Source: Rhodobiaceae bacterium
Lineage (GTDB): Bacteria; Pseudomonadota; Alphaproteobacteria; RS24
Direction of reading: 5' to 3'
NCBI GenBank assembly: GCA_002721725.1
Contig: PBLK01000008.1
Location: forward strand, 205,618-252,785
Length of the DNA stretch: 47,168 bases
Each line of letters begins with the position of its first letter. The stretch's first letter is position 1. This document shows, piece after piece, positions 15,789 to 24,854 of the stretch. The notes beneath the pieces are model-generated. The model worked only from the letters and a program-made list of their open reading frames with translations, searched no databases and was not told the origin of the DNA. The position numbers were made by a program, and so were the translations under genes.

Positions 15789-16448
15789 ATGCGTGAGCCC
15801 CCCCCAAATGGCGATGAGTGGCAGGCCAGCGCCGAAAGCCTATTGGCGCTGGAGGCGGAAATTCCGCTTTTATCGGCCTTGCGCGAATTTACCGAACGCG
15901 CCGCGCGCGCGCGTTGGTTTGCCGAATTGGGTGAGCCGATTGACGGCGAGACGGCGCGTTTGGCGCGCCTTTATTTGGACGCTCTGGGCTTCCCCGATGC
16001 CGAACCGCTGCCGGTTTTGAGCTGGGATGATGCGCTCGATGCCGCCGAAAGCGGCGATTTGAACAGTGAGGGCTGGGAGGCTGAAGAACAATTACGCGCC
16101 GCCCTAACCGATCGCGTACTGGCCGGCGTGTCAGAAGACGGGCTTGGCGTGATGCTGGCGCATTTATCGGCCGCCTTGGCAGAGCCCTTGGCGGAAATGG
16201 CCGATGAAGCGCTGATGATGGCCGATGAGCCGCCCGACGCCATTCGCGATTTGGCTGTCGGGGCGGCACAGCAGGCGGCTTTTGGCGGTGCTTTGGCGCT
16301 GGCGGCGGCGGCCCTTGAAATGGCCGAAACGGATGACCGGCAAGCCGGCGAAGAAGCGCTGGAGCACCCGCTTTTGCTACGTTACAGGCTTTTCGAACTG
16401 GGCCGCTGGCCATTGGCCTTAAGCGGGCGCAGCCTCAATTTATTCTAA
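15789..16448 (+). CDS. Uncharacterised acidic alpha-helical protein
   Basis: I do not recognise this 219-residue protein. It is strongly acidic and Ala/Leu-rich, predicted almost entirely helical, with no signal peptide, no membrane helix and no Cys. Repeating helices such as 'LRAALTDRVLAGVSEDGLGV' and 'MADEALMMADEPPDAIRDLA' suggest a helical-bundle or repeat scaffold. A short conserved-looking end 'HPLLLRYRLFELGRWPLALS' is the most distinctive part. It starts 3 bp after the lolA-like gene and is followed by xth after 24 bp, so it is part of the dapC-ftsK-lolA transcript. Codon usage matches its neighbours, and the frame is uninterrupted over 660 bases, which argues that it is real. Confidence 0.75.
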   Translation: MREPPPNGDEWQASAESLLALEAEIPLLSALREFTERAARARWFAELGEPIDGETARLARLYLDALGFPDAEPLPVLSWDDALDAAESGDLNSEGWEAEEQLRAALTDRVLAGVSEDGLGVMLAHLSAALAEPLAEMADEALMMADEPPDAIRDLAVGAAQQAAFGGALALAAAALEMAETDDRQAGEEALEHPLLLRYRLFELGRWPLALSGRSLNLF

Positions 16449-19779: not shown

Positions 19780-20544
19780 ATGATTCTGCTGAAAAACCGC
19801 TTTTTATTGCCTGTCTTCGTGGGCCTATTGATTTTGTTGCCGACGGTTTCAATGGCGCAAACCGTTGAGGTGGCGGCTGATGCGGCTGCCGAAACAGCGC
19901 CCGGCTTTTGGGCGCTCTTGTTTTCCAAGGGCGGTGTGGTGACATGGGTTATTGCCCTTTTATCGGCCGTCGGCCTACCGATTGCTGCCATTAAGCTCTA
20001 TGAATTTTACCGGATGGATATTTTTCGCCCAAGCGCCCTCGAGGAGGCGCTTGGCGACATGCGGCGCGGCAAAACCGCCGGTTTGGGTGCGCGCTTGGAT
20101 GCGCTCGCCCATCCTGCAGCGCCACTTATTGCTTTTGCCTTGAGCCAAAGCAGCGCTGCGCGTTTGGCCCCGGCCGTGCTGCGCGAAGAATTGACGCGCC
20201 GCGCGCAATTTTTGGTGCGTCATCTGTCGCGCAATATTTGGGTGCTCGAATTGATTGCCGCCTCGGCCCCTTTGTTCGGCCTATTGGGCACGGTGCTCGG
20301 CATGATCATCGCTTTTCAAGGCGTTGGCCAGGGGGTTGGCGGGACTGATACGGCGTTATTGGCGGCGGGTATTTGGGAAGCCTTATTGACCACCGCTTTC
20401 GGGCTGGGCGTGGCCTTGCCGTTTTCAATTCTCGCCGCCGTTTTCAATAATGCGGTTGATGGTGTGCGCGATATGGTGGAAGACGCATTGACCGAGATTT
20501 TGGTGCGCGCCGACAGCCGAAGTGCCAAATCAAGCGAGGGCTAG
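19780..20544 (+). CDS. ExbB/TolQ/MotA-type proton channel subunit
   Basis: A 254-residue inner-membrane protein. It starts with a signal-like hydrophobic segment (residues 7-26, 'AQ' at 26-27), a short periplasmic stretch, then three channel helices at about 52-72, 157-181 and 203-223. The last two carry the family motifs 'ASAPLFGLLGTVLGMIIAF' and 'GIWEALLTTAFGLGVALPF', with the conserved Thr and Glu that line the pore. An extra N-terminal segment is common in ExbB proteins outside the enterobacterial TonB system. Two in-frame ATGs (19765, 19780) are possible; 19780 has tggag upstream. It is the first gene of a five-gene run; the next starts 3 bp later. Confidence 0.9.
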   Translation: MILLKNRFLLPVFVGLLILLPTVSMAQTVEVAADAAAETAPGFWALLFSKGGVVTWVIALLSAVGLPIAAIKLYEFYRMDIFRPSALEEALGDMRRGKTAGLGARLDALAHPAAPLIAFALSQSSAARLAPAVLREELTRRAQFLVRHLSRNIWVLELIAASAPLFGLLGTVLGMIIAFQGVGQGVGGTDTALLAAGIWEALLTTAFGLGVALPFSILAAVFNNAVDGVRDMVEDALTEILVRADSRSAKSSEG

Positions 20545-20547
20545 CCC

Positions 20548-20967
20548 GTGCGATTGGCCATCCGCCCACGCCGCGCTGCCTTTATGGGGCTGACCCCTCT
20601 TATAGATATGATTTTTTTGCTGCTGCTGTTTTTCCTGCTCGGCTCCGATTTCGTGACCTATGGACAAAGCCGTTTAGCCCCGCCGCGTGGCACTGGCGGG
20701 GAGAGCAGCGCTGCCCCGCCCGTGCTTATCACCCTGTCTGAAACTGGCGCGTTGAGCTGGAACGGCGCGCCTGCCAATGCGGCTTTTTTAAGCCGCGAAA
20801 CGACGCGCTTGGTGGCGCTCAATGAAGAGCAGACAATGGTTCTCATGCCTGCCGGCGCGGCTAATATTCAACAAGTCAGTGATATTATGGATGTGCTGCA
20901 CCATGCTGGTGCACGCTCCATCACGCTGGAGCGTGACGTGTTTGAAATTGATTTGGCAGATTTTTGA
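20548..20967 (+). CDS. ExbD/TolR-type protein with intact membrane Asp
   Basis: A 139-residue protein with one N-terminal membrane helix and a periplasmic domain. The helix starts 'LTPLIDMIFLLLLFFLLG' with Asp20, the residue that carries protons in ExbD and TolR. The C-terminal part ends with the family's 'VSDIMDVLHHAGARSITLE' helix-strand. It begins with GTG directly after the ExbB stop (3-bp gap). No ATG gives a complete membrane helix, which supports the GTG. Its stop is one base before the start of the second ExbD-like gene. Confidence 0.92.
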   Translation: MRLAIRPRRAAFMGLTPLIDMIFLLLLFFLLGSDFVTYGQSRLAPPRGTGGESSAAPPVLITLSETGALSWNGAPANAAFLSRETTRLVALNEEQTMVLMPAGAANIQQVSDIMDVLHHAGARSITLERDVFEIDLADF

Positions 20968-20968
20968 C

Positions 20969-21394
20969 ATGCAACTGAAAGAGACACGCCGCGAGATAAA
21001 ATCTATTGATTTGCTGCCACTTATCAATGTGGTGTTTCTGCTGATTTTATTCGTTTTGATTGCCGGTCGCCCCTCAACTAATCATCCGTCCAACCTCGAA
21101 GTGGCGCGCAGCACGATCGAAACCGCGCATCAAGGCGCGGCCTTGTCGGTTTGGCTGAAGCAGGATGACACTTTTTATCTGTCGGAAACGAAGCCGGTAA
21201 CGCTTGGTGAATTGACCATGCTAGTCACCGAGAAAGACCTGGCGGCGCAGGGCCTGCCTTTGGAGCTGATTGCTGACCGCCGCGCCCATGCTAGGCAATT
21301 ATTGGCTTTTCGCCGCGCAATGGCGCGCGCCGGTGTCGGTGAGATCCGCTTGAAAACTGAGGTCAGAGCGCCTTCGGCGACAAATACGCAGTGA
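20969..21394 (+). CDS. Second ExbD-like protein, with Asn in place of the membrane Asp
   Basis: A 141-residue ExbD/TolR homologue: short basic N-terminus, one membrane helix 'LLPLINVVFLLILFVLIAG' and a periplasmic domain ending 'LLAFRRAMARAGVGEIRLKT'. At residue 20, where the preceding ExbD has Asp, this one has Asn (codon AAT in 'CTTATCAATGTG'). Proton transport by ExbD and TolR depends on that carboxylate, so this copy probably cannot carry protons and may pair structurally with the intact copy. In a dimeric ExbD pair inside the ExbB pentamer this would make an asymmetric channel (inference). The ATG at 20969 follows the previous stop by one base. The open frame further upstream is within exbD and is not used. 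Confidence 0.9.
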   Translation: MQLKETRREIKSIDLLPLINVVFLLILFVLIAGRPSTNHPSNLEVARSTIETAHQGAALSVWLKQDDTFYLSETKPVTLGELTMLVTEKDLAAQGLPLELIADRRAHARQLLAFRRAMARAGVGEIRLKTEVRAPSATNTQ

Positions 21395-21420
21395 GGCATA
21401 GTGAGGCTTGGTGAGGCATA
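21391..21420 (+). repeat. Triple 10-bp tandem repeat at the ExbD2/vWA gene junction
   Basis: Three units lie end to end: GTGAGGCATA, GTGAGGCTTG, GTGAGGCATA. The first overlaps the TGA stop of the ExbD-like gene; the last ends two bases before the vWA ATG at 21423. Each unit contains a GTGAGG that resembles a ribosome binding site, with the third at proper distance. Confidence 0.85.
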
Positions 21421-21422
21421 GG

Positions 21423-22559
21423 ATGGACGATATATTGCAGAAAAGCGGCTGGTTTAGCCGGATGCGTGCGCGTCTGGTTGCGGTGCCGCGGCGCGTCTGG
21501 TTAAGCCTTTTGGCGGCCTCTTTAGCGGCGCATATTTTGGCCGTCGGCTTGGTGTTGGTTCTGCTGTTTGGCGGCGAACGGGGCGGTGGCGATGCCGAGG
21601 ACAGCCTTGTCATCTCATCGGGAGAAGCCGCCCCCGAAGATATTGATCTTAAGCTGCCGCAACATATGCCGGTTGAGGCACCGCGCTTGGCTAAGGACGA
21701 ACTCGATTTATCGGAACTTTTGGAAGTGCCGCTGGAGGCGGATTTTAATGATTTGATGATGGATAATGCGCAAATGGCGGCAATTGCCCCGGCCATGCCA
21801 TTGCCTAGCGCCGCCGTAACCCAGCGCGCCATGTCGGGCGGAGGTCTTATCTCCGGTGTGCCGCGAAGCTTTGCCGATTATATCCAGCATTTGCAAAAAA
21901 CCGGCATTGACGTGGTGTTTGCCATTGATGCCACCGGCTCGATGGTATGGGTGCATCGCACGGTGCGCCAGCGCATGGCACAATTGGCGGCCTATGTGCG
22001 CGGGCTCGTGCCTTTGGCGCGCTTCGGCATTATCGCCTATCGCGATTATAATGATATTGATTTTGTAACGCGCATTTCGCAACCCAGTTTCGATATAGAA
22101 AAAGCACGGCTTTTTATGAGCGGCATTGATGCTTTGGGTGGCGGTGACCACCCCGAAGCGGTGACGCAAGCTTTGCGCGATAGCGAGACCATTATTGGTT
22201 GGCGCAGCGGCGCCCAGCGCGTCGTCATTATTATCGGAGATGCGCCGCCGCATGCGCGCGAAACGAACGAGGCGGCAGAAATTGCCGAGCGCTTTAAATC
22301 TCGCGGCGGGCGCTTGTCTTTATTGGACAGTCGGGTTGAGGCCAATCGCGCGCTTTTGGGGCGCGGTAAGCCTACCGGTTCAGGGGTTGATTTGGTCAAA
22401 CAGGGGGTGATGCCGGTGTTTCGTAGGCTCGCCCGTTTGGGCGGCGGCACGGCGGCGACATTGGCAGCCGAGCGGGAATTGATGAAAACCCTCGCCCTAT
22501 TGATTTTTGACGACCGTTTTCACGATGAGCTGGCGCCGTTTTTGGCCAATTTGGAGTAG
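21423..22559 (+). CDS. Membrane-anchored vWA-domain protein with a TonB/TolA-like N-terminal helix
   Basis: A 378-residue protein. Residues 1-25 are short and basic (cytoplasmic), then comes one membrane helix (about 26-49, 'WLSLLAASLAAHILAVGLVL'). It contains Ser33-x3-His37, the spacing found in the membrane helix of TonB and TolA, where it contacts the ExbBD or TolQR channel. A proline- and acid-containing linker (50-155) leads to a periplasmic von Willebrand A domain (about 162-365) with the metal site 'DVVFAIDATGSM' (Asp169, Thr171, Ser173), 'GGGDHPEAV' (Asp242) and 'IIIGDAPPH' (Asp273). vWA domains bind protein ligands through a metal ion. No TonB-type C-terminal domain exists. It is the fourth gene of the run. 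Confidence 0.88.
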   Translation: MDDILQKSGWFSRMRARLVAVPRRVWLSLLAASLAAHILAVGLVLVLLFGGERGGGDAEDSLVISSGEAAPEDIDLKLPQHMPVEAPRLAKDELDLSELLEVPLEADFNDLMMDNAQMAAIAPAMPLPSAAVTQRAMSGGGLISGVPRSFADYIQHLQKTGIDVVFAIDATGSMVWVHRTVRQRMAQLAAYVRGLVPLARFGIIAYRDYNDIDFVTRISQPSFDIEKARLFMSGIDALGGGDHPEAVTQALRDSETIIGWRSGAQRVVIIIGDAPPHARETNEAAEIAERFKSRGGRLSLLDSRVEANRALLGRGKPTGSGVDLVKQGVMPVFRRLARLGGGTAATLAAERELMKTLALLIFDDRFHDELAPFLANLE

Positions 22560-22562
22560 CTG

Positions 22563-24854
22563 ATGGTGCGCTTGATGAGCCTTTTTGTTTTTCTGCTGAC
22601 GCCGCTGACGGCGGTGGCATGCGGAGCGCCGCCGTCGCTTTTGATGACCACGCCGCCGCAGCTCTTGCGCGGCTTAGAAAAAGATAAAGCAGCGTTTCTT
22701 GACGCTATGGACAATTATTCGATTGCGATGGAGGCGTGTTATGACGGCCCACAAGGGCCACTGGAATTGGCTCCACATATCAAAGCGGCAAATTTGTTGC
22801 ATGCCAATATCACCGCCATGCGCCGTTTGGCCGAAGATAAGGTGCGCGATAATGAGTTTGATTATGAGGCGCTGTTATCATCCCCGCTTTGGGGCGATAT
22901 TGAAGCCATGCGGGTGGCCGCCACCTATGCCACCGCATGGGGCGCTTTGGCGGCAGCAGTGCGCCATATTTCAGCCGAAGACAAAAAGCAAGCGCTCGAC
23001 CTAGCCGGTGAGGCGATGCAGCAATTGACCTTCGAATTCAAGCATCCGGTCTTGGTGCAGCGCGCCATGTATGGTTTGGCGACGTCCCAGATTGAAGGCG
23101 GCCGCCTAGCGGCAGCAGTCGCAACCTTGACGCGGCTAAGGCAATCTTTGGCGCGCGGCGGCGATGCTGATTTTAAAATATCGGTTGACGGTTTTTATGC
23201 CCGCATCACCGCCCCGGGCTACCAGCCGCCGGCGCCCCTATTTGAGACGGCGGAAACGCCGGCCAATGAAAGCGGCGCGCGCTTGGCCTTGACTGGCAAG
23301 GCCGGCGATGATGCGGTTAAACTGGCGCGTATTGCCTTGGCGGAGGCGCGTCCGGCCTCAGAGATAATCGGCATTTTGGAACCGGCTTTGCGCGGCACGC
23401 GTACCAGCGCGCGAGCCGCACTTGCCTTGATTGCCCGCGACCAGCTTTTATTGAAGGCGATGGATTATGCGCCTGGGCCATCTCTGCGGGTCATGCGCCG
23501 CGCTTTTGCAGACGGTCAATATGGTCAATTGGTTGCGAGCTGGCCCGATTTGAAACCCTATTATCCGCTTTTGCCCGACGGTTTGAAGCGGCAAGTGGAT
23601 TACCATATGGGAGTGGCGCGCCTCAATTTGGGCGAATTGGTTTTGGCGCTCGACCATTTGCGCGCGGCGCGCCGAGCGACACCGAGCGGCGCGGAGGCGT
23701 CGCGCCTCGATAAGCTGATCATTTTGGCGCGCCTGTCGGTCGATAAGCCGCCTAAGGCGCCGCTGATTGCGTTGGCCAAAAAAAACGTGCGCCCGCCGCA
23801 GAAAATAGAAAAACAAAGAGCCATTGATGACCCGCCGCCGACGCCGGAAGAGGCGCTTGATGACATGCTCGATTTGCGCGCCCGCATCGTGTTGGCCCGC
23901 CATGCGGCGGCGCAAGCCGATTGGGCGACGGCGGACGGTTATTTGACTGGCATCGGACCCCAGCAATCAGCCTATCAATTATTTCTCGGTATGCGGGTGC
24001 GGCTCTTGGCCGAGGCGGTGCGCGGGCGTTTAAAGAAAGGCGAAAGCGTCAAGGCGGTGCGCAGCATTGCGCGCGGTGGGCATATTCTTTATCGCCTTTG
24101 GCGCGACAGCGATTGCTTGCCCGGCTGCCCGAGGAGTAATCGCCTCGCAGTGCACCGCGCGGCTTTTGAAACCGCGCTGATGGCCCGACTTAATAGCACC
24201 GCTTTCGGCCTTGCTTGGGGTGGCTTTGTTGATGAGGGCGGCGACATCAAACCTTTTGTTGGCCAGGCCCTCCCCTATTTGATCGATCAAGCCGATGGTG
24301 AAAGGCTGATGGCGATGCTGGAAAACGATAACGAAGATTTGGCAGCCTTTACACTGGGTCAATGGAAAAGACATTTGAGTGCGCGCCTCAAAAAACCTGA
24401 TTTCGACGGGCGCTATCAATTTTTGAGCGCATTGGCCGACATGCAAGGTCGCCCGCATGCGGTTTTGCTGGAGGCATTGGTCGAACATGATTTAACGCGC
24501 GAGCGACCGGCAGAGGCGCTTATCCATGCTGAAACATTGGCCGTCAATTTCCCACGCCGACCGTCGGCTTGGTTTTGGCGCGCTGCCGCTTTGCAAGCCA
24601 ATCAGCGTGGGCTGGAAGCGGCGCGCACTTTATCCTCATTGGCGCAGCGCACCCCGTCCGATGATCCGGTCGGCATGGGTGCGCGGCTCGGCCTGGCAGC
24701 CCTGTTCGTCGATTTGCAGCGCGGTAACCAGGCCTGCGCCATGCGCGAGAAAATATTTTCACGCCCGCAAGCCGAATCACGCTGGCGCAATGCGGCGCAA
24801 GCTTTTCCGCCCTTAAAGGATTGGCAAAAAACCACAGACCGCTATTGTGGCTGA
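22563..24854 (+). CDS. Large exported helical-repeat (TPR-like) protein
   Basis: A 763-residue protein with an N-terminal signal ('LMSLFVFLLTPLTAVAC'), where Cys20 could be either the lipid-bearing Cys of a weak lipobox (AVAC) or the first mature residue. The rest is alpha-helical with repeated pairs such as 'HMGVARLNLGELVLALDHLR' and 'PSAWFWRAAALQANQRGLEA', read as TPR-like repeats though divergent. Several Cys pairs ('CLPGC', 'ACAMREK', the final 'RYCG') fit an oxidising compartment. I recognise no catalytic motif. It starts 3 bp after the vWA gene and ends the cluster, convergent with purH (10-bp gap). It probably works with the vWA protein in the periplasm (inference). Confidence 0.8.
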   Translation: MVRLMSLFVFLLTPLTAVACGAPPSLLMTTPPQLLRGLEKDKAAFLDAMDNYSIAMEACYDGPQGPLELAPHIKAANLLHANITAMRRLAEDKVRDNEFDYEALLSSPLWGDIEAMRVAATYATAWGALAAAVRHISAEDKKQALDLAGEAMQQLTFEFKHPVLVQRAMYGLATSQIEGGRLAAAVATLTRLRQSLARGGDADFKISVDGFYARITAPGYQPPAPLFETAETPANESGARLALTGKAGDDAVKLARIALAEARPASEIIGILEPALRGTRTSARAALALIARDQLLLKAMDYAPGPSLRVMRRAFADGQYGQLVASWPDLKPYYPLLPDGLKRQVDYHMGVARLNLGELVLALDHLRAARRATPSGAEASRLDKLIILARLSVDKPPKAPLIALAKKNVRPPQKIEKQRAIDDPPPTPEEALDDMLDLRARIVLARHAAAQADWATADGYLTGIGPQQSAYQLFLGMRVRLLAEAVRGRLKKGESVKAVRSIARGGHILYRLWRDSDCLPGCPRSNRLAVHRAAFETALMARLNSTAFGLAWGGFVDEGGDIKPFVGQALPYLIDQADGERLMAMLENDNEDLAAFTLGQWKRHLSARLKKPDFDGRYQFLSALADMQGRPHAVLLEALVEHDLTRERPAEALIHAETLAVNFPRRPSAWFWRAAALQANQRGLEAARTLSSLAQRTPSDDPVGMGARLGLAALFVDLQRGNQACAMREKIFSRPQAESRWRNAAQAFPPLKDWQKTTDRYCG

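Follow-up and report, generated by a model that had tools for sequence, protein, structure and literature searches.

We analyzed a gene cluster in the window, a 47,168-nucleotide stretch of contig PBLK01000008.1 (Rhodobiaceae bacterium, assembly GCA_002721725.1). It encodes an ExbB-like protein, two ExbD-like proteins (ExbD1 and ExbD2), a vWA domain protein and a TPR-like protein. The host has a 1.7 Mb genome and belongs to a marine alphaproteobacterial family; its close relatives carry the label PS1 clade or Rhodobiaceae. All five genes lie on the + strand and are tightly packed, with intergenic gaps of 3, 1, 28 and 3 bp in the order ExbB-ExbD1-ExbD2-vWA-TPR. The original prediction, made from the DNA letters, had described such a cluster on one strand with gaps of 1-28 bp, and the coordinates, Pfam matches, a vWA fold match and a solenoid model bore this out. 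The features are as follows:

19780..20544, + strand: ExbB/TolQ-like proton-channel subunit, 254 amino acids (aa), with a signal-like N-terminal segment and three membrane helices
20548..20967, + strand: ExbD1, 139 aa, GTG start, with one membrane helix bearing the proton-carrying Asp20 (LTPLID)
20605..20607, + strand: codon of ExbD1 Asp20, Asp in 19/19 orthologues
20969..21394, + strand: ExbD2, 141 aa, with one membrane helix and the invariant segment IDLLPLINVVFLLILFVL
21026..21028, + strand: codon of ExbD2 Asn20, at the site of the proton-carrying Asp, Asn in 19/19 orthologues
21423..22559, + strand: vWA protein, 378 aa, ATG start (the TTG at 21408, further upstream, is a possible alternative)
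21519..21533, + strand: Ser33-x3-His37 in the membrane helix of the vWA protein, equivalent to the first half of the SHLS motif of TonB/TolA (motif definition from PMC12905483)
21600..21620, + strand: candidate motor-box-like segment DSLVISS in the vWA linker, placed by eye
21927..21941, + strand: metal-site motif DATGS (residues 169-173) of the vWA domain, from residue conservation
22563..24854, + strand: exported helical-repeat (TPR-like) protein, 763 aa, with a signal peptide at about residues 1-19

Pfam analysis matched ExbB to MotA_ExbB (2.6e-25) and the two ExbDs to ExbD (1.2e-17 and 1.3e-9). We observed that ExbB kept the channel Thr (GTVLGM, LLTTAFG) and Glu (IWEALLTT) residues at the same positions as the TolQ of this genome. 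The Ser of its first transmembrane helix (TM1) was also kept, and the TM1 Trp was replaced by Leu. The residues expected of a 5:2 motor were therefore present in ExbB (Thr/Glu) and in ExbD1 (Asp); ExbD2 had Asn instead. This Asn occupied the proton-carrier position of the second ExbD in the vWA operons and also in TonB-coupled relatives, and the surrounding membrane segment was conserved more strongly than the periplasmic domain of ExbD2. No Asn-type ExbD was described in the literature that we searched.

We ran an ExbD2 profile over 379 genomes of the phylum. Among the best matches were ExbB-ExbD(Asp)-ExbD(Asn)-TonB operons from other alphaproteobacteria (L171:1000-1863, L183:1022-1896, L176:1064-1860 and L197:1067-1860). 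These share the motor gene order, the Asp/Asn pair and the transducer slot with our operon. They differ in that the transducer ends in TonB_C rather than vWA (by Pfam in three, 6.7e-16 to 4e-17; the L171 TonB was assigned by eye), and no TPR gene was identified in the short flanks read. Another match, L194:360-3327, carried an Asp/Asn tandem motor followed by an ApbE-DUF2271 protein in place of TonB, and the tandem ExbDs of L173 had Asp in both. The tandem TonB operons were also the nearest relatives in our trees. In the ExbB tree, the vWA-type and tandem TonB-type proteins grouped together (90/92), apart from TolQ and single-ExbD ExbBs. In the ExbD tree, the ExbD1s grouped with the tandem-motor ExbD1s (93/94, with the ExbD1 of L194 outside) and the ExbD2s with their ExbD2s (82/70). 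These groupings suggest that the ExbD duplication, and probably the Asn, may be older than the split of the TonB- and vWA-coupled forms, which is a reading of moderate supports and not a proof.

AlphaFold2 (AF2) modeling of the vWA protein gave a membrane helix (residues 23-49), a disordered linker of ~95 residues (52-146; predicted local distance difference test score (pLDDT) <50) and a vWA domain (150-377). This three-part plan of helix, disordered linker and globular domain is that of TonB and TolA. Pfam support for vWA was weak and under cut-offs (VWA_4, 8e-5), and Pfam did not find TonB_C in the protein. A fold search with the AF2 C-terminal domain matched vWA domains of known structure (prob. 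1.00, E as low as 9e-10), with BatB among the matches. The metal-site residues DATGS, Asp242 and Asp273 were kept in all orthologues and in a distant relative, G053, where Ser173 is Thr.

Ser-x3-His in the membrane helix was present in 20/20 orthologues, though adjacent residues vary. Published structures place the motif Ser and His at the hub of contacts with TM1 of ExbB/TolQ (PMC12905483). In this genome, TolA has SLALH at the matching place, and the TonB of the Ton system is without a Ser-x3-His motif. The linker segment DSLVISS lies at a distance from the His similar to that in TolA/TonB; it falls in a low-confidence AF2 region and was not modelled as a strand. A profile of the vWA N-terminus ranked the membrane piece of G053 1st and the L171 TonB 3rd of 3360 non-family frames (E 0.8 and 3.2), which is only suggestive of direct N-terminal homology between the vWA protein and TonB.

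The repeat protein gave a single weak TPR hit in Pfam, and its AF2 model was an all-helical solenoid (mean pLDDT 83). Six Cys residues (20, 59, 518, 522, 725 and 762) were conserved family-wide, with few other Cys. The signal peptide and the Cys pattern are as expected for an exported, oxidised (disulfide-type) protein. A fold search returned generic helical repeats and no informative match.

We found the vWA protein in 20/28 genomes of the order, all of one family, and in three of six genera. It was absent from 6/6 genomes of genus g5, and in the four checked at purH other genes occupy the site. The ExbB-ExbD-ExbD-vWA-TPR order was kept in all fetched family relatives, down to 42-62% protein identity, with one exception cut by a contig start. 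The gene-order comparison proposed with the original prediction thus shows an arrangement that recurs across three genera, which rules out chance as the origin of the grouping. Within the family, the ExbB-ExbD-ExbD genes were never separated from vWA-TPR. Among 385 genomes of the class, the vWA (E below 1e-50) and TPR profiles matched the identical five, one being G053, from another family. The G053 sequence was itself included in the repeat-protein profile; a profile built without it still retrieved G053 (2.8e-11). Its vWA-TPR pair (L048:2831-6895, a distant alphaproteobacterium) was the only such pair among distant vWA matches in the class and phylum, and none of these matches had ExbB neighbours in the regions read. 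Plasmid relatives showed vWA-domain matches only, at 30-34% identity. A phage origin was rejected, with no PHROGs match for the vWA or TPR protein and no relatives in viral contigs.

The absence of TonB, TolA, Pal and TolB from the cluster had been predicted, and it held within the five genes. It did not hold for the genome, which encodes a complete ybgC-tolQ-tolR-tolA-tolB-pal-cpoB operon on contig C4 and a DUF3450-ExbB-ExbB-ExbD-TonB-TPR cluster, a Ton system with a real TonB, on contig C2. Because both systems are complete elsewhere, the operon is the third motor of this genome, and we rejected a replacement of Tol-Pal or Ton. A replacement of flagella was also rejected, since genus g6 has the operon together with FlhA. 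A Zorya-like or other defence system had no support: none of the five proteins had a PADLOC match, and ZorA2 appeared in NCBIfam only at E 0.36.

We consider it probable that the operon encodes a third envelope motor driven by the proton-motive force, most likely one that powers a vWA transducer together with an exported repeat protein. ExbB would form the pentameric channel of an ExbBD/TolQR (5:2) class motor. Its axle would be made of ExbD1 (Asp) and ExbD2 (Asn), in the simplest case a heterodimer in which a single Asp carries protons. The Ser-x3-His helix of the vWA protein would dock laterally on ExbB in the manner of TonB and TolA, with the disordered linker spanning the periplasm and the metal-site vWA domain serving as the grip. 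The periplasmic repeat protein may then be a partner or adaptor that relays the action of the vWA domain to the cell wall or outer membrane. That the vWA protein takes the place of TonB/TolA had been anticipated in the original prediction; the invariant Ser-x3-His, the disordered linker and the sister operons with TonB in the same slot favour it, but the idea is already in print (PMC12204202). The further proposal, that the vWA protein passes force to the repeat protein, has the co-occurrence of the two as its sole basis.

Several observations weigh against this mechanism. The TM1 Trp of the TonB/TolA contact network is Leu in this ExbB. Of the SHLS residues, only Ser and His are conserved: V or L stands at the Leu position, and the final Ser is not retained. 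With these two departures, the vWA-ExbB interface must differ in detail from the published ones. The AF2 models are of single chains. In G053, the vWA-TPR pair has no adjoining motor genes on its 7.6-kb contig, and a stop splits the membrane piece from the vWA domain, placing them in separate reading frames. There are long branches in both the ExbB tree and the ExbD tree, and some of the supports are modest.

The vWA force-transducer concept was published independently in 2025, as a family with TolA/TonB-like topology in Planctomycetes-Verrucomicrobia-Chlamydiae (PVC) bacteria and also in Proteobacteria, with AlphaFold3 docking models (PMC12204202, Mol Biol Evol 2025, msaf138). That family (Tichowtungia type) shares with our locus a membrane helix with the docking His, a disordered linker (about 100 residues), a C-terminal vWA domain, a tolQ-like gene, two different tolR-like genes and an adjoining TPR gene. 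This likeness is drawn from the published description. The TPR gene lies upstream in PVC bacteria, whereas it is the last gene here; the described SHLS motif is matched here only in Ser and His, at the right spacing, and the described motor box, a beta-strand in the linker, has DSLVISS as its candidate counterpart. Our locus may be just another member. We provisionally call it a variant because its Asp/Asn ExbD pair is unlike the ExbBD/TolQR motors described so far; the published vWA clusters were compared by their description. The second class in the same paper, TPH-vWA with TolQ only, also has a membrane-anchored vWA protein beside a proton-channel gene, but there the vWA helix carries an Asp and ExbD is lacking, in contrast to the two ExbDs and the Ser/His helix here. 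A protein resembling that class was observed in G138 (L049:5846-6847), a vWA protein with Asp in its membrane helix (LSISALDLFASALGVFILMAILLF) and no tolQ-like neighbour on its contig. The E. coli-type ExbBD-TonB and TolQR-TolA systems share with our operon the 5:2 motor family, the essential channel residues and the Ser-x3-His docking motif. They differ from it in that our operon has two different ExbDs (one without Asp), vWA for the C-terminal domain of TonB/TolA, and no Pal, TolB or receptor gene. Should the vWA protein indeed transduce force, the envelope work of ExbBD-type motors would extend beyond nutrient import and outer-membrane constriction, with the five genes here as a compact version of such a machine.

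Bat-type aerotolerance loci are known to pair vWA with TPR proteins. The vWA and TPR proteins could likewise be a separate Bat-like periplasmic adhesion or chaperone pair that is simply encoded alongside a proton channel, with the helix of the vWA protein acting as no more than a membrane anchor. The pair kept in G053 away from an adjacent motor, and BatB among the fold matches, agree with this. We nevertheless find it rather unlikely, as Ser-x3-His is invariant within a variable helix, the motor genes are inseparable from vWA-TPR within the family, the vWA protein occupies the TonB slot of the sister operons, and even the separate membrane piece of G053 has a His at the W-x10-H spacing of the vWA helix. 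A third Ton system, in which the vWA domain instead of a TonB C-terminal domain would open a small number of outer-membrane transporters (one or a few) and the TPR protein would be the adaptor, would suit a motor that is sister to TonB-coupled motors in a genome with five TonB-dependent receptor plug hits. It is improbable in our judgement, given that the genome has a Ton system elsewhere with a real TonB, that 0/5 plug hits lie on the operon's contig and that genus g5 does without the operon.

We regard it as very unlikely that the operon drives surface motility or adhesin movement in the manner of Myxococcus AglRQS-Glt, although the parts list is the same: one TolQ-like subunit (AglR), two TolR-like subunits (AglQ and AglS), a TonB-like transducer (GltG) and TPR proteins (PMC3169522, PMC9389320). 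Genera g1 and g3 are also without the flagellar FlhA. AglQ and AglS, however, both retain Asp (PMC9389320), the transducer there is TonB-like, and the Myxococcus machine has many more parts. Moreover, genus g6 carries the operon and FlhA, and no Glt-type outer-membrane part was seen beside the operon.

Specialist attention is best directed at the natural Asp/Asn ExbD pair. In current models the ExbD dimer bears two conserved aspartates and turns by 36 degrees per proton (PMC12215075), and strict Asp/Asn pairing bears on how proton passage turns the axle. We tentatively suggest, with more doubt than confidence, that the operon belongs to an alphaproteobacterial lineage of 5:2 motors in which ExbD1(Asp) and ExbD2(Asn) pair as an obligate heterodimer and the axle has one proton-carrying site. 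In such a motor, at most every second 36-degree step would be proton-driven, and different transducers would have been fitted to it, TonB in several lineages and vWA in the PS1 clade. If so, nature itself offers a test of the rotary model in this one-site motor, whose single aspartate would place constraints on two-aspartate models. An axle of ExbD1 Asp/Asp homodimers is a doubtful but possible variant, compatible with the proposed vWA-coupled motor; ExbD2 would then conduct no protons and might bind peptidoglycan, have a regulatory part or hold the vWA protein in place. Separate roles have been described for tandem exbD genes, and the Xanthomonas exbD2 is dispensable for the main function and has a distinct role (PMC3551730). 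Against this variant, ExbD2 conservation is stronger in the membrane segment around the Asn than in the periplasmic domain, as expected for a helix within the ExbB pore.

The operon is flanked by an acyl-CoA dehydrogenase gene 78 bp upstream and by the end of a convergent purH 10 bp downstream, both named from their translations. Elsewhere in the window, a 219-aa open frame without a Pfam match follows a LolA-like gene (15789-16448). Contig C22 of the same genome (L100:4780-6493) encodes a short ExbB-like protein, next to it a protein whose membrane helix contains Asp (FTDILFNGLLGFAFMF), and then another membrane protein; neither of the last two had a Pfam hit. A similar arrangement of a short ExbB-like protein and a membrane-Asp protein occurs in G053 (L160:5957-7263). 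The L100-type cluster looks like another uncharacterised small proton motor.

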